Source of the DNA: Mariniphaga sp.
GTDB taxonomy: Bacteria; Bacteroidota; Bacteroidia; Bacteroidales; Prolixibacteraceae
Length of the DNA stretch: 36,683 bases
Direction: 5' to 3'
Assembly (NCBI GenBank): GCA_025355585.1
Contig: JANXZJ010000146.1
Location: 1-36,683, forward strand
The notes under the pieces are model-generated. The model was not told the origin of the DNA. It worked only from the letters and a program-made list of their open reading frames with translations, and ran no database searches. Shown here piece by piece: positions 1 to 36,683 of the stretch. The stretch's first letter is position 1. The number at the start of each line of letters is the position of its first letter. The position numbers were made by a program, and so were the translations under genes.

Positions 1-176
1 TATTAAACAGGTTCCGTTTAGTATTAAACTACCTGCATTTAATATTAAATGTAATGCGTTTAATATTAAATGGAATATGTTTAGTATTAAAGTTACTTTG
101 TTTAATAGTAAACGGCATGCATTTAATATTAAACTTACCAGGTTAAACATTAAACATCCACAGTTAAACATTAAAC
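1..176. repeat. Array of AT-rich palindromes, exact 21-bp period
   Basis: Eight complete 14-bp units begin at 16, 37, 58, 79, 100, 121, 142 and 163, and a partial unit occupies 1-8, so the start-to-start distance is 21 bp every time. The consensus is (G/A)TTTAATATTAAA(C/T), a near-perfect palindrome; the last two units drift to GTTAAACATTAAAC. The seven bases between units vary freely (for example AGGTTCC, TACCTGC, GGCATGC). Because 21 bp is seven codons, one frame stays open and reads as FNIK-type heptads, but I take this as a by-product of the period. The array runs off the left edge of the window. Two helical turns per unit would put every site on one face of the DNA. Function unknown. Confidence 0.93.
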
Positions 177-237
177 AAGTCGATTCATGCATTCAACAAG
201 CTGTTTTATACCGTAAATACTCCGCTACCCACAACGT

Positions 238-375
238 CCCGATCCTACTTGTTTGTGACGAGGAGTTAGTTGTCTGTCGTTTGTAACGATAAAGCAAAAT
301 TTCCGAATTAGGAAAGCTGATGCGAAAGCTCTCAATACCATCAACATTTTCGAAATTTACTAAGCGGGATTTCAT
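238..375 (+). repeat. Dispersed intergenic repeat, copy 1 (no promoter half)
   Basis: This 138-bp unit is followed directly by a second copy starting at 376 with the same CCCGATCC beginning, so the two are tandem direct repeats. Recognisable blocks in order are an inverted repeat around GTTTGTGACG, the block TCGTTTGTAACGATAAAGC, then TTTCCGAATTAGGAAAGCTG, then CATCAACATTTTCGAAA and AAGCGGGATTTC. The promoter/leader half seen in copies 2, 3, 5 and 6 is missing here. A long minus-strand frame crosses both units only because 138 is a multiple of three. Bases 177-237, between the 21-bp array and this repeat, show nothing recognisable. Confidence 0.85.
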
Positions 376-585
376 CCCGATCCTCCTCGTTTGTAACGAG
401 GAGTTAGTTGTCTGTCGTTTGCAACGATAAAGCAAAATTTCCGAATTTGGAAAGCTGATACGAAAGCTCTCAAGTCCATCAGTATTTTCAAAATTTACAT
501 CGCGGTATTTCGTCACTTTTTAAATCGAAATACGTATATTTGAAGTAAAACTCTTTATGGGAAGTAAAGTGGTTAAATCTTGTCC
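376..585 (+). repeat. Dispersed intergenic repeat, copy 2 (with promoter and leader)
   Basis: This is a full copy. It opens with a perfect inverted repeat of nine-base arms (CTCCTCGTT - TGT - AACGAGGAG). Next come TCGTTTGCAACGATAAAGC, TTTCCGAATTTGGAAAGCTG, the TTTTCAAAATTTAC block and CTTTTTAAA. It ends with TATATTTGAAG and the leader block ATGGGAAGTAAAGTGG-TTAAATC. Copies 3, 5 and 6 show the same order of blocks in front of unrelated genes. The remainder up to the gene at 669 is AT-rich leader that is not conserved. Confidence 0.88.
516..585 (+). promoter_or_regulatory. Promoter and conserved 5' leader of the 88-aa gene
   Basis: TATATTTG at 535-542 fits the Bacteroidota -7 element TAnnTTTG. 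It is preceded by the conserved ACTTTTTAAA block but not by a clear TTTG at -33. Transcription would start near 548, leaving a leader of about 120 bases before the start codon at 669. The first 35 bases of the leader are conserved between copies and include a purine-rich GGGAAGT (GGGAGGT in other copies) and GGTTAAATC. Confidence 0.6.
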
Positions 586-1256: not shown

Positions 1257-1532
1257 ATGGAACGCGATCTGACAAACGAAGAAATCTCACAGCTTTGTAT
1301 GTATATGCGTGTGATCGATTTTATGAGAAAGAATCAAAAGGTATTAGACGAAAATGCAGAGATGAAGAAGAATTATGACAAACTTTGTCTGACAGTAAAT
1401 GAATTAATGGAAAATATTTCGGAAGAACAACGGGACGAAGTATTAGAAGAACATAAAATACAATTAGAAGAAATAGCAAAGGAAGAAGCAAAAAAGCAAC
1501 GCAAAAAAAATAACCGAACATTAAATAAATAA
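1257..1532 (+). CDS. Small charged protein, paralogue B
   Basis: This 91-residue product is a tandem paralogue of the protein encoded at 669-935. Long identical blocks occur at the N terminus (LTNEEIS), in CMYMRVID, in YDKLCL and in EEQRDEVLEEHKIQLEE, and both end in a Lys/Arg-rich tail. There is no signal peptide and no cysteine pair or catalytic motif. The overall pattern is a cytosolic helical or coiled-coil protein with an acidic middle and basic end. The upstream repeat was duplicated together with the gene, so the pair probably arose by tandem duplication. Function not recognised. Expression is expected from the box at 1119-1126. Confidence 0.75.
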   Translation: MERDLTNEEISQLCMYMRVIDFMRKNQKVLDENAEMKKNYDKLCLTVNELMENISEEQRDEVLEEHKIQLEEIAKEEAKKQRKKNNRTLNK

Positions 1533-1591
1533 GCAACCTCTTCCTGACTGTCAAAATAAGATTGAAGCAATTTAAAATGGCATAAAGTCGA

Positions 1592-25817: not shown

Positions 25818-27134
25818 ATGCCGCTGATTATTATTGTTGCCGGAATCATACTCCTTTTCGTACTGATAAGTGTTTATAAAATCAGCGCTTTCCTTGCACT
25901 GTTAATTACCTCTTTTGCGGTGGGCTTGCTCAACAGCATGGAGCCACTTACAATTTTGCAATCGATTACTTCAGGACTTGGAAGTACAATGGGCAGCCTG
26001 GCACTGATCATCGTTTTCGGAGCAATGCTGGGGAAAATGCTCGAAGAAAGTGGCGCTGCCTACCAGATCACAAATAAATTGGTTGATCTTTTCGGGATTG
26101 GAAAGATACAGATCGCGATCATGATCACAGGTTTTCTTGTTGGATTGCCAATGATTTACAATGCCGGATTTCTTGTGTTAATACCGCTGATTTATGCACT
26201 TGCAGCCTCAACCAGATTACCGCTGATCTACCTGGGACTCCCTTTGTGTGCGGCACTTTCTGTTACACACGGGTTCCTTCCTCCCCACCCCGCTCCTACT
26301 TCTATCGCATTTATATTTCATGCAAATCCAAATTTAACTTTGTTGTATGGAATGCTGGTTGCAATACCCAGTATTATAATTGCCGGTCCATTGCTTTCAA
26401 GATTCTATACCAACTGGAAGCTCACACCTCCGAAAGAATTGTTTGTTGCACGTGAATTCACGCCCGAAGAATTACCTTCACTTTCGGCAAGTCTGTTCAC
26501 TGCAGTAAGCCCGATTATTTTGATGTTATCAGGTGCAGTTATTCAGATGGTTCTTCCGGCAGAAAACAGCAATGTCAAAATACTGAAGTTTATCAGCGAT
26601 CCTACTGTTGCACTTTTCTTTGCTGTTTTTATCGGGGTTTACCTGCTGGGTATCCGGAAAAAACGAAAGATGTCGGACCTGATGAAAACATTATCCGAAT
26701 CAGCGTCGGGAGTGGCGATGATCCTCCTTATCATTGCCTCAGGTGGTGCTTTCAAGCAAGTACTTGTTGACAGTGGAACTGCCGATTATATTAAAGTGAT
26801 TGCAGGAGGATTCAACATGTCGCCGCTTGTGCTTACCTGGAGCGTAGCTGCATTGATACGATTTGCGATTGGCTCTGCAACGGTCTCGTGTATAACTGCA
26901 GCTGGTTTAACTTTGCCATTGATAGCAGGAACCGGCGTTTCACCTGAACTGATGGTGATTGCAACGGGTGCCGGAAGCCTTATGCTCTCTCATTTTAACG
27001 ATATCGGCTTCTGGATGTTCAAGGAGTACTTCAACACAACGATTAAACAAACCTTCCTTGTCTGGACCGTGATGGAGACATTGATAGGTATTATAGGACT
27101 AATCGGAGTATTGATACTAAATCAGTTCATTTAA
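25818..27134 (+). CDS. GntP-family gluconate/organic-acid:H+ symporter
   Basis: The 438-residue inner-membrane protein has 12-14 hydrophobic segments and matches GntP/GntT transporters in length. Family marks are AMLGKMLEESGAAYQITNKL (gluconate permease signature region), GFLVGLPMIYNAGFLVLIPL, VTHGFLPPHPAP, ALIRFAIGSATVSCITAAG and LSHFNDIGFWMFKEYF. Members take up gluconate or related sugar acids (including idonate, fructuronate and glycerate) with protons; which one cannot be told. No kinase or dehydratase gene for gluconate lies next to it. The upstream 23-bp palindrome suggests regulated expression. Confidence 0.93.
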   Translation: MPLIIIVAGIILLFVLISVYKISAFLALLITSFAVGLLNSMEPLTILQSITSGLGSTMGSLALIIVFGAMLGKMLEESGAAYQITNKLVDLFGIGKIQIAIMITGFLVGLPMIYNAGFLVLIPLIYALAASTRLPLIYLGLPLCAALSVTHGFLPPHPAPTSIAFIFHANPNLTLLYGMLVAIPSIIIAGPLLSRFYTNWKLTPPKELFVAREFTPEELPSLSASLFTAVSPIILMLSGAVIQMVLPAENSNVKILKFISDPTVALFFAVFIGVYLLGIRKKRKMSDLMKTLSESASGVAMILLIIASGGAFKQVLVDSGTADYIKVIAGGFNMSPLVLTWSVAALIRFAIGSATVSCITAAGLTLPLIAGTGVSPELMVIATGAGSLMLSHFNDIGFWMFKEYFNTTIKQTFLVWTVMETLIGIIGLIGVLILNQFI

Positions 27135-27189
27135 ACCACCAATTACTGAATCGATAAAAGAGTTGTTACATTTGTTGAAAATTGATATC

Positions 27190-27279
27190 ATGTGGGATCA
27201 ACTCAAAATACTCAGAGAACAATACATTAATCAACGAATAATGGATTCGATTGATTATGAGAAATTCTGCATGATTTAA
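27190..27279 (+). CDS. Possible 29-residue peptide
   Basis: A short frame of 30 codons (MWDQLKILREQYINQRIMDS...) follows TACATTTG at 27167-27174, a fit to the -7 box, by 15 bp. Composition is ordinary for a coding helix. The last four codons lie in the first unit of the 21-bp array. There is no homologue in the window and no strong ribosome-binding site, so it may be chance or the remnant of a longer gene. Confidence 0.22.
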   Translation: MWDQLKILREQYINQRIMDSIDYEKFCMI

Positions 27280-27581
27280 CCACAATATTGCGTATTTTTC
27301 AAATCCCATTGCAGAATATTTAAAAAGTGTTGCACATTTTTTAATTGTCGTTGCGTATTTTTTCAGTTACATTTCTGCACTTAACAACTTTCTTGCGTAT
27401 CTTTTCAGTTGCATTTCTATATTTAACAACTTCCTTGCGCATTTTTTCAGTTACATTTCTACATTTAACAACTTACTTGCGTATTTTTTCAGTTACATTT
27501 TTACATTTAACAACTTCCTTGCGCATTTTTTCGATTGCATTGCAATATATTACCTTTTTATTACGCTATATTTGTATTGCA
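27267..27581. repeat. Second 21-bp-period array, upstream of the HTH gene
   Basis: Fifteen units, each exactly 21 bp, start at 27267, 27288, 27309 and so on to 27561. From 27351 the units alternate between two types, giving a 42-bp higher-order repeat: type A begins TTGCGTATTTTTTCAG and type B reads TTTCTACATTTAACAACTTC with small changes. The outer units keep the leading TTGC or TTAC and an AT core but are more diverged. There are no gaps or unique spacers. The frame in phase reads as LRIFSVT/FLHLTT heptads only because 21 bp is seven codons. The -7 box of the downstream gene lies inside the last unit. The sequence differs from the array at 1-176 but the period is identical. Confidence 0.92.
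27567..27574 (+). promoter_or_regulatory. -7 promoter box of the HTH gene inside the array
   Basis: TATATTTG within GCTATATTTGTATTGC, 29 bp before the start codon at 27604. A TTG at 27540-27542 lies 24 bp upstream, slightly too far for the usual -33 spacing. A regulator bound to the array would touch this promoter directly. Confidence 0.6.
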
Positions 27582-27603
27582 AAACAATATTTAATCAAAT
27601 CAC

Positions 27604-27981
27604 ATGTTACAATTAGACCTTTACCGAATATTTGAAGACAAGGGCATCGATAACCCACACTACTTTTTAAGAAAGAATGGGTTTACTACTCATACCACGA
27701 GCCGACTTCTAAACAATAAGGTGGACAGTATTAGTTTCAGGCACCTGGAACAAATTTGTTTGCTCCTTAACTGCTCAATCGACGACCTTTTTTCCTGGAC
27801 GAACGAAGATAAAACTGGAATGTACAAAGACCATGTTTTTCAAAAACTCAAACGTGGCCAGCGAAAAGGGAATATTACAAATTCATTAAAAAATCTTCCC
27901 CTTGACAAGTTAAATGAAGTCCGAAACTATATCGATCAGATTGCAATGACCGAAAAGCAAAATGGAAAATCTTTGGATTAG
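27604..27981 (+). CDS. Small Cro/C1-type HTH regulator
   Basis: The 125-residue protein has a helix-turn-helix of the XRE (Cro/C1, HTH_26-like) kind in its first 65 residues: HYFLRKNGFTTHTTSRLLNN as the DNA-binding helices and FRHLEQICLLLNCSIDDLF as the closing helices. The remaining 60 residues are charged and helical (GQRKGNITNSLKNLPLDKLNEV), with no known effector domain. It has no signal peptide. The promoter sits in the last unit of the 21-bp array, so autoregulation through the array is a reasonable guess. The GH13 gene begins 55 bp after its stop, and the two could be one operon. The target genes are unknown. Confidence 0.85.
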   Translation: MLQLDLYRIFEDKGIDNPHYFLRKNGFTTHTTSRLLNNKVDSISFRHLEQICLLLNCSIDDLFSWTNEDKTGMYKDHVFQKLKRGQRKGNITNSLKNLPLDKLNEVRNYIDQIAMTEKQNGKSLD

Positions 27982-28036
27982 TAATTCCGGTCGTTTATTA
28001 ATACCTTTAACGGGAAGTAACATTTTTAAAAATATC

Positions 28037-29419
28037 ATGGCACACTACAAAATCAAGATCATTACCCTGTTGGCAATAACAATCCTGTTTTCGGGGTGCG
28101 ATTTCTCCAAAAAAGAAGCTCCCAAAGCAATTCCATATCCCGACTGGGTAAAAAATAGTGTGATTTACGAGATCAACACGCGTCAATATTCACCTGAAGG
28201 GACCTTTAAAGCATTGGAAACTGACCTTCCCCGGATAAAAGCACTTGGGATCGACATCCTTTGGCTGATGCCCATCTACCCAATCGGGGAAAAAGACCGT
28301 AAAGTACCTGAAGGAGCTAAATCAAGTCTGGGAAGTTACTATTCAATCAGGGATTACCAGGCGGTCAATCCGGAATTCGGTACAGCAGATGATTTTAAAA
28401 ATCTTGTAGATAAAGCACATGAGATGGGTTTTAAAGTAATCCTCGATTGGGTAACCAACCATACCGCACGCGACCACAAATGGATTACAGAACATCCCGA
28501 TTGGTATAAGAAAGATGCCAAAGGTAATATTGCAACGCCAAATGACTGGACCGATTGTGCACAACTCGATTATACAAATAAAGAATTGCGGAAGGAAATG
28601 GTCGGTTCGATGAAGTTCTGGGTGAAGAATTTTGACATTGACGGATTCAGATGTGATATGGCAGGACTGGTTCCCCTCGATTTCTGGGAAGATGCACATG
28701 CTGAACTACAGCAAATCAAGCCGCTTTACATGCTTGCCGAGAATCAGGACAACCCCGAACTTTGCAAGATTGCTTTCGACTCGAATTATGGATGGGAGAT
28801 GCATCACCTGATGAGTGCAATCACACAGGGAAAGAAATCGGCTGGTGAAATACTAAAGTTGCAGACAAAGATCGATTCAGTATTGCCGCAAAGGGCTTTC
28901 AAGCTGAATTTCATCACCAATCATGACGAAAACTCATGGAATGGTACAGCAAAAGAGAAATTTGGGAAAGGTGAAAAAAGTTGTGCCGTACTTACTTACA
29001 CACTTCCAGGCATGCCATTGATTTATAACGGACAGGAAGCAGGAATGACAAAACGTCTTCGGTTTTTCGCAAAAGATACAATCAATTGGAGCGACACATT
29101 GATGATTCCGTTCTACAAAACGTTGAACAGTCTGAAACATCGCAATCAGTCGCTTTGGAATCCTCCCTATGGTGGTAAGCTGGTTCCGCTCACCAATTCG
29201 GCTCCCGGTAAAATTGTTTCGTTCCTTCGGTCATCAACAAATGCACATGTAATGGTATTGATAAACATGAGTCCCGACACGATCACAACAACAATTACAA
29301 CCGCCATTGCAGACGGAAAGTATATCAATACATTCAATCAGAACAAGATCAATTTCAATGTCGATAACCGGAAATGTTACTTCGAACCGTGGGAATATTT
29401 AGTTTTGGAAGGAGAATAA
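28037..29419 (+). CDS. GH13 alpha-amylase-family lipoprotein
   Basis: The start at 28037 (MAHYKIKIITLLAITILF) yields a lipoprotein signal with lipobox FSGC (Cys21); the longer frame to 27962 overlaps the regulator gene. The 460-residue enzyme has the (beta/alpha)8 barrel motifs of GH13: DWVTNH (137-142), FRCDMAG with nucleophile Asp207, LAENQD with acid/base Glu235 and TNHDE with Asp297, so all catalytic residues are present. The YEINTRQYSPEGTF opening is typical of Bacteroidota members. It should cut or transfer alpha-glucosidic bonds of maltodextrin-like glycans at the cell surface or in the periplasm. It has no carbohydrate-binding module and no SusC/SusD partner in the window. Confidence 0.92.
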   Translation: MAHYKIKIITLLAITILFSGCDFSKKEAPKAIPYPDWVKNSVIYEINTRQYSPEGTFKALETDLPRIKALGIDILWLMPIYPIGEKDRKVPEGAKSSLGSYYSIRDYQAVNPEFGTADDFKNLVDKAHEMGFKVILDWVTNHTARDHKWITEHPDWYKKDAKGNIATPNDWTDCAQLDYTNKELRKEMVGSMKFWVKNFDIDGFRCDMAGLVPLDFWEDAHAELQQIKPLYMLAENQDNPELCKIAFDSNYGWEMHHLMSAITQGKKSAGEILKLQTKIDSVLPQRAFKLNFITNHDENSWNGTAKEKFGKGEKSCAVLTYTLPGMPLIYNGQEAGMTKRLRFFAKDTINWSDTLMIPFYKTLNSLKHRNQSLWNPPYGGKLVPLTNSAPGKIVSFLRSSTNAHVMVLINMSPDTITTTITTAIADGKYINTFNQNKINFNVDNRKCYFEPWEYLVLEGE

Positions 29420-36069: not shown

Positions 36070-36683
36070 CTAAGTACATGACAAAAATTTACAACATTGA
36101 CTAAATCTATCTATATCGTTAAAGTACAGCACATTTGCCAGATATGTTAATCCGTATTTGAATAAACTTTGAGCTCTTCGCCCGTGCTTTTTGATCTTGA
36201 TCGGGCGAAGAGAATCTAAGAATATTCCAACTTTGTAGGCCCAAACAAAAGCAATCAATACTAATGCGAAGAGCTTATCAATTCTGTCAACATCCGTCAA
36301 ATGCGTATTTTCAATATTGAAACCGCTTGTTTTAAGTGCTTTAAATACAGTTTCTATTTGCCAACGTTCTTTGTATATTGACTGAGCTTCATCTGGTTTG
36401 TTGAATGAAACAATGATCTGGAGTTCTGGCACACCTTGTTTATTTTTGACTTTCGAAGCCGATAAATAACACAGTTGTCCATTGACATAAACGATTCCAT
36501 GGCGAACCTCATATTGATTGGTCTTTAAATGATTAAATAACCATGAAGCCTTTACGAGATGTCCATTTTTTGGAATAATGACTCAAAAATTTTCTCAAAT
36601 TCTGATGTGGTATCTAATCTTATTGAAATTGAGATAGGCCAACCAGTGATTGCCAATAAACTCTCTGTCAGCCAGCAAACAAT
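36070..36683 (-). pseudogene. IS4-family transposase remnant with two in-frame TGA codons
   Basis: Read on the minus strand, one frame stays open in sense from the window edge to the stop at 36070, apart from two TGA codons at 36597-36595 and 36585-36583. LLADREFIGNHWLAYL holds the second DDE aspartate. After the TGAs comes VRHGIVYVNGQL and then the YREK motif of IS4 elements (Y-x2-R-x3-E-x6-K in YKERWQIETVFKALK). The sequences around the stops (RI-TGA-ENF-TGA-VIIPKNG) suggest RENFW in the parent, each TGA one base from CGA or TGG. The 5' part is beyond the window. Ends and target duplication were not found. Confidence 0.85.

Follow-up and report, generated by a model that had tools for sequence, protein, structure and literature searches.

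A probably horizontally spreading HTH regulator gene and its phased array of 21-bp repeats, a possible portable genetic switch

The stretch of DNA analyzed here, referred to as the window, comprises the 36,683 nucleotides at positions 1 to 36,683 of contig JANXZJ010000146.1 of Mariniphaga sp. (assembly GCA_025355585.1; 4.09 Mb, 197 contigs, 84.3% complete). It contains a gene for a 125-aa Cro/C1-type regulator (HTH_26, PF13443) which is preceded by an array of about 15 units of 21 bp ending in the likely promoter of the gene. Together the array and gene form a cassette of about 0.7 kb. The features of the window and of other loci mentioned below are collected in Table 1, in which L numbers denote individual loci examined with their flanking DNA (G numbers are used in the text for genomes).

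Table 1. Features of the window and of related loci, with the evidence for each
Location	Strand	Feature	Evidence or remarks
Window 27278..27993	+	Cassette of 21-bp array plus regulator gene, in place of the body of a fic gene	DNA homology to the nearest relative (L245, genome G008) covers window 27132-27277 and resumes at 27994-28040; between them L245 has a fic gene and no array or regulator
Window 27278..27594	+	Array of about 15 units of 21 bp	Lag-21/42 identity; period run
Window 27351..27539	+	Regular part of the array, alternating A (TTGCGTATTTTTTCAGTTACA) and B (TTTCTACATTTAACAACTTCC) units	TRF 27351-27532, period 42, 4.3 copies, 89% matches; unit listing
Window 27567..27574	+	TATATTTG, candidate -7 box of the Bacteroidota type (consensus TAnnTTTG)	Sequence; position of the motif over all loci (see text)
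Window 27604..27981	+	Gene of the 125-aa Cro/C1-type HTH regulator	PF13443, E 3.6e-11, 43.6 bits against a curated cut-off of 22; AlphaFold2 mean pLDDT 86.7; Foldseek matches to Cro/C1-fold proteins, best E 3.4e-3, none at E<=0.001
Window 27190..27279	+	Remnant of a fic gene: 29 codons, then a stop at the junction with the array	Homologous to the start of the 261-aa fic gene of L245 (PF02661, E 4.8e-17)
Window 27994..28040	+	Right flank; homology to the relative resumes 13 bp after the regulator's stop codon	blastn of the intergenic region against L245
Window 1-233		Second 21-bp array, at the start of the contig; units with a GTTTAATATTAAAC-like palindrome	Weak relative at L049 9730-9968
Window 237-498		Direct duplication of about 138 bp	91% matches
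Window 36070-36432		IS4-type transposase fragment near the end of the window	
L017 12004-12750, L043 13516-14259, L303 2061-2804, L182 1446-2210		Family B: proteins of about 248 aa, with a 21-bp array 3' of the gene in 4 of 4 members among the examined loci	No Pfam match (two tested) or NCBIfam match (three tested); array weak in L182
L016 51-737, L030 1653-2339		Family A: 228-aa proteins, 73% identical to each other, each with a tandem array about 270-460 bp 5' of the gene	62-bp period at L016, in the window's genome; 21/42 at L030
L207 3549-3869 and 3906-4571		Crp/Fnr-type regulator gene with its own 21-bp array ending 37 bp before it	HTH_26 regulator of the same locus lacks an adjacent array
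L036 1-193 and 17970-18283, L041 11848-12048		Tandem arrays of 41-bp period in the window's genome	
L002 about 1500-1560		Start region of a gene that looks by eye like a glycogen synthase	20-of-21 match, TTGCAGAATATTTAAxAAGTG, to one degenerate unit of the window's array

The periodicity of the array was assessed by self-comparison at fixed lags. Over 27267-27602, identity was 0.70 at lag 42 and 0.48 at lag 21, against 0.31 +/- 0.025 at lag 21 for 500 dinucleotide shuffles. A run detector placed the periodic stretch at 27268-27594, while comparison with the nearest relative placed its left junction at 27277/27278. The 42-bp alternation of A and B units is clean only within the regular part, with the units on either side being degenerate. 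The observation of an earlier note, of a 21-bp array with A/B alternation, was confirmed, the array ending in the likely promoter of an HTH regulator gene, as was its statement that the array at the start of the contig has the same period and an unrelated unit. The candidate -7 box lies 37 bp before the ATG. The note also suggested that several units could be decoy or weak RNA polymerase sites, but this was not supported: over all loci, TAnnTTTG was counted 16 times against 25 for the reversed control from -325 to -76. Its largest excess was in the bin -50 to -26 from the ATG (10 against 3), with two other bins, -125 and -75, showing small excesses (4 against 1 and 3 against 0).

To determine whether such an array is a rule of the regulator family, the note having named the lack of arrays in homologues as a rule among what would refute its interpretation, homologues of the regulator were collected in successive searches. 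Homologues at 28-33% identity were found in 6 of 60 relatives, and a second search found 21 places in 17 of 140 family genomes, the window's own genome included. Of these, L099 has no upstream sequence and L108 is a fragment; among the 19 usable loci, TRF detected a period-21 or -42 array within 340 bp upstream in 16, and lag 21 or 42 was the highest of the lag spectrum in 19 of 19. A profile scan of GTDB genomes gave 145 relatives, of which the best 80 were analyzed, three being set aside for having less than 150 bp upstream. Lag 21 was highest in 44 and lag 42 in 23 of the remaining 77, 67 in all, and z at lag 21 (z21) exceeded 4 in 56. Mean z was 6.09 at lag 21, 5.76 at lag 42 and at most 1.05 at other lags. 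One of the 77 upstream regions (L208) holds two masked letters, without which lag 21 is still on top. Neither lag was on top in ten loci (L155, L157, L165, L170, L187, L189, L190, L199, L200, and L207). It should be noted that the 19 family-level loci overlap in part with the 77, because several genomes are the same records. In a phylum sample of 392 genomes the gene was found at E up to 1e-10 in seven, the own genome included, and the seven new loci in the other six, which possibly overlap with the earlier sets too, all had lag 21 on top. The carriers include Bacteroidetes of several orders and records labeled Acidobacteriota and Ignavibacteria (L144, L170, L186, L196, and L205), although these labels are from MAGs and may be wrong, and L170 shows no array signal.

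Other regions of the same loci served as controls. Among 429 upstream regions of other ORFs of 150 aa or more in the 80 loci, lag 21 or 42 was on top in 47 and z21 exceeded 4 in 3. One of these three is a masked N stretch (L163), and the other two are arrays in L155 and L207, loci whose regulator lacks an adjacent array. Downstream of the regulator, lag 21 or 42 was on top in 11 of 79 and z21 exceeded 4 in 1 of 79. Match density at lag 21 over 71 loci rose from about 0.27 at -640 to 0.51 at -200 and fell to 0.39 at -80. An array at any HTH_26 gene was not supported: of four other candidates of the own genome (L211, L213, L215, and L216; a fifth, L214, could not be placed) none reached a z21 of 3, although lag 21 was weakly on top in L211 (2.1) and L215 (2.9), and only L211 had its start codon placed. 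A regulator of a fixed neighbor was likewise not indicated. In a clustering of ORFs from 81 loci, the largest cluster apart from the regulator covered 15 loci at scattered distances on both sides and was not identified, and no cluster sat at a fixed place. The interpretation of the note, a phased multi-site operator possibly bound by the encoded regulator, was thus partly supported: homologues have 21-bp arrays as a rule and other upstream regions do not, and a phased multi-site element read by the encoded regulator fits the data, but the units are not palindromic, the decoy-promoter idea was not supported, and the mobile cassette and the same-motif arrays in trans described below, not all of them at promoters, go beyond it.

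The possibility that the array works as RNA or is translated was considered, as 21 bp corresponds to seven codons and 13 of 59 arrays have at least one stop-free frame. However, 46 of 59 have stops in all six frames, the frame of the regulator is open in only 1 of 59, and the candidate promoter lies at the downstream end of the array, so that a coding array was rejected and this explanation is considered very unlikely. Nor were a palindromic operator or RNA hairpins supported, with 1 of 59 arrays giving p<0.05 for a palindromic unit profile (combined p 0.087) and units not being self-complementary. This is unlike most operators of Cro/C1 dimers, and a classical dimer operator is not indicated.

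The unit sequence differs from locus to locus whereas the period does not. Similarity between the units of two loci rises only when the proteins share more than about 55%, and much less as reverse complement (Spearman 0.257 for the same strand and 0.084 for the reverse; permutation sd 0.05 and 0.04). In a regression over 59 arrays with permutation, unit similarity depended on identity in HTH helix 2 (p 0.002), the N-terminus (0.030), helices 4-5 (0.044) and the recognition helix (0.048), and not on the C-terminus (0.25). Among 258 pairs at 50-80% identity, the partial correlations given total identity were 0.33 (helix 2), 0.26 (recognition helix), 0.08, 0.01 and -0.10 (C-terminus). This is what reading of DNA by the HTH predicts, although kinship of the sequences is only partly controlled and the N-terminus and helices 4-5 reach p values similar to that of the recognition helix.

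Four loci from different assemblies (L182, L183, L184, and L188) encode proteins that are 97-100% identical, and each has 10 units which abut the ATG. The columns forming TTTTAA (TT-TTAA) are 0.90-1.00 conserved between orthologous units and 0.80-1.00 between units of one array, while variable columns fall to 0.65 between orthologues. Orthologous units are 0.85 identical and different units of one array 0.60. Over the six pairs there are 90 synonymous codon changes against 9 amino-acid changes. Unit number and core are kept while the rest drifts, and the protein looks to be under purifying selection. In other pairs the array changes more, with L178/L180 and L150/L152 (proteins about 90% identical) having genes 84-87% identical but upstream identities of 0.67 and 0.63. 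Such pairs, together with the 21-bp arrays that occur in the window's genome without the regulator, could suggest a neutral minisatellite which expands by slippage and merely travels with the gene. This is thought unlikely given the fixed period across Bacteroidota and the records labeled Acidobacteriota, the constant 10 units and conserved core columns in four hosts, and the upstream position.

The borders of the cassette were examined by comparing flanking DNA. The near-identical cassettes of the L182 group sit in different contexts in four genomes: L182 and L183 share DNA from -219/-220, the first unit, to +365 just after the stop codon, and L182, L184 and L188 from -212/-214 to between +604 and +762, beyond which the flanks differ apart from dispersed repeats shared at other distances. 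L131/L132 share -164 to +357 and L134/L136 share -333 to +340. Within the window's own genus, the nearest relative by the flanking genes (L245 of G008; GntP 95% and amylase 87% identical) retains the fic gene, so that array plus gene and nothing else stands in place of the fic body. G008 carries a distant homologue of the regulator elsewhere (contig C436, 28% identical), and four other congeners (L248, L250, L251, and L254) carry a different gene, on the opposite strand, at this place. No transposase was found in the cassette, 3' ends differed between loci by eye with no common end seen, no relative was found in viral contigs, only one partial match was found among 72,556 plasmid records, and one partial match, covering 40% of the query, was found in phages.

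The coincidence of the cassette borders with the array start and the end of the gene could also mean that the array is the mobile part, a recombination or integration site with the HTH gene as passenger or helper and no task in expression control. Other small gene families also lie beside arrays, namely families A and B, neither of which gave a Pfam or NCBIfam match. It should be noted that all members but L182 were noticed because of their arrays. That no common 3' end was seen, that no transposase was found in the cassette and no full-length relative in viral contigs, plasmids or phages, and the correlation of the unit sequence with the HTH helices, speak against this explanation, which is considered improbable. 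No match to PADLOC models of known anti-phage defense systems at E up to 0.01 was found for any of five proteins (two regulators, two of family B and one of family A).

Arrays with the same core motif were found elsewhere in three of four other genomes tested. In Pedobacter chitinilyticus, the unit pattern with up to 3 mismatches hit only the array of the regulator (7) and one other (8), with 3 hits for the reversed control. This second array has 20 units and ends about 85 bp before a gene that is read as ECF-sigma-like, its Sigma70_r2 match (23 bits) being just below the cut-off of 24. A genome-wide pattern of two cores 21 bp apart gave 49 hits, 47 of which lie in four arrays and 2 of which are stray, against 0 for the reversed pattern. 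The third array (L275) and the fourth (L303; 24 units, 55 bp past the stop of a 247-aa gene) share the core AACTGCG. Draconibacterium aestuarii has a second array between convergent genes, and Taibaiella lutea has one 5' of a tRNA_bind gene. Profile similarity to the array of the regulator was 0.87, 0.66 (L275) and 0.70 in Pedobacter, 0.74 in Draconibacterium and 0.82 in Taibaiella, against 348 null values with a mean of 0.31 and a maximum of 0.55. With the exception of L275, which was found by its period alone, these arrays were found by searching for the motif, and their similarity is not an independent test. No second array was found in the genome of L173, a MAG, and BLAST of the window's own genome showed only a 47-bp match at the start of another gene.

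The trans arrays sit in mixed positions, upstream of an ECF-sigma-like gene, between convergent genes and 3' of a 247-aa gene, of which the latter two are poor places for a promoter operator, and arrays of 15-24 units exceed what a promoter needs. It is possible that the array is a chromosome-organizing or silencing site on which the HTH protein nucleates, with the arrays in trans as further anchoring sites and control of its own gene being secondary. However, carriers are rare in the phylum sample, which excludes a general chromosome function, and the array lies upstream of the gene, not downstream, and ends near its promoter. This explanation is also considered unlikely.

The explanation favored here, with moderate confidence, is that array and HTH gene are one inherited unit, a small, horizontally spreading regulatory cassette. 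In this view the protein reads a 6-7-bp core recurring once every 21 bp, two turns of B-DNA, so that all sites face the same side and point the same way. Copies would probably assemble head to tail, one protein per unit, up to the promoter at the end of the array, and so set the level of the protein by cooperative autoregulation, while the same core at other loci would let the protein act there too. The predicted structure resembles Stl, CylR2 and SinR over about the first 65 residues, and the C-terminal helices could serve contacts between neighbors. The analysis itself demonstrates the conserved array and its upstream place, the fixed period with a variable unit, the conserved core columns in one group, the cassette borders, the same-motif arrays in trans and the correlation of the unit with the HTH helices; physical binding, head-to-tail assembly, autoregulation, an effect on the trans loci and the means of transfer are inferred from these. 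Confidence was slightly reduced by the weak lag-21 signals at other HTH_26 genes and by the way members of families A and B were noticed.

Several known systems share parts of this arrangement. Plasmid iterons with their Rep protein (R6K, F, P1, RK2) are oriented direct repeats about two helical turns apart beside the gene of the protein that binds them, with autoregulation. Here, direct repeats in helical phase likewise lie beside the gene of the presumed binding protein, but no Rep domain was found. HTH_26 is the main domain: 15 of 15 members of an alignment of the family match it at E up to 0.01, with 3 of 15 also matching HTH_31 and 1 BetR weakly. BldC of Streptomyces is reported to be a small HTH protein binding DNA direct repeats as cooperative multimers (PMC5859096). 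BldC is MerR-like, its repeats are shorter, and it is not known to form a mobile array-gene pair. The BrickBuilt minisatellite MITE of Porphyromonas gingivalis consists of intergenic tandem repeats of similar unit length (23 nt) with promoter elements in a Bacteroidota genome, but it is one repeated sequence found 19 times in one genome, with inverted-repeat ends, leader and tail (PMC4596501), whereas here the period is 21, the unit differs per locus and the array is tied to one gene family. The TAACTGA heptamer direct repeats of Beggiatoaceae, Cyanobacteria and some Bacteroidetes are intergenic, near start codons and possibly spread horizontally, but have one fixed 7-bp unit, are proposed to act after transcription and have no linked regulator gene named in the parts consulted (PMC4679880). 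Phage-type Cro/C1 repressors with multiple operators, SaPI2 Stl, CylR2 and SinR share the protein fold; their operators are few and mostly palindromic, in contrast to up to about 24 non-palindromic oriented units at one exact spacing. In searches of a library of open-access literature, no description linking 21-bp arrays with such a regulator was found. HTH regulators and phased direct repeats are each known; a mobile pair with fixed period and drifting letters, plus same-motif arrays in trans, has not to our knowledge been described.

If this explanation is right, a family of small HTH genes of Bacteroidota is half of a two-part portable element, the other half being DNA that annotation ignores. 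It would provide dozens of natural protein-array pairs with fixed geometry and drifting recognition, a ready data set for how a Cro/C1 HTH reads oriented direct repeats, and possible orthogonal regulator-operator pairs for engineering, as well as a lead on what the 21-bp arrays scattered over such genomes are for. A bolder reading, which is doubtful though not excluded, is a new kind of portable gene circuit. The letters of the array would drift with the HTH of the protein, and same-letter arrays in trans, in Pedobacter beside the ECF-sigma-like gene and beside family B, would form a private address code shared by all parts of one network in a genome. Renewal by co-drift would then allow several such networks to coexist without cross-talk.

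Arrays in general were also surveyed in parts of five genomes. In 674 kb of the window's own genome (G000), 12 runs at lag 21 stood out against 1-2 at other lags, one all-N contig (L033), a heptamer-like repeat (L018) and a coding-like repeat (L019) having been left out of 15 rows. A second carrier (G555) had 2 in 409 kb, one of them chosen because of its motif, and three non-carriers (G004, G028, and G013) had none in 294, 400 and 215 kb, their runs being N stretches; with two carriers against three non-carriers this is only suggestive. The common period of the two arrays of the window, which the earlier note took as a sign of a common principle, does reflect a class found over this genome, but the array at the start of the contig shares no motif with that of the regulator, and no HTH_26 gene was found beside it. 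The regulator's array has no clear partner among the arrays of the genome (best similarity 0.49). These arrays form motif families, with window 1-176 and L049 weakly related (0.58) and L028 and L046 sharing a unit (0.91).
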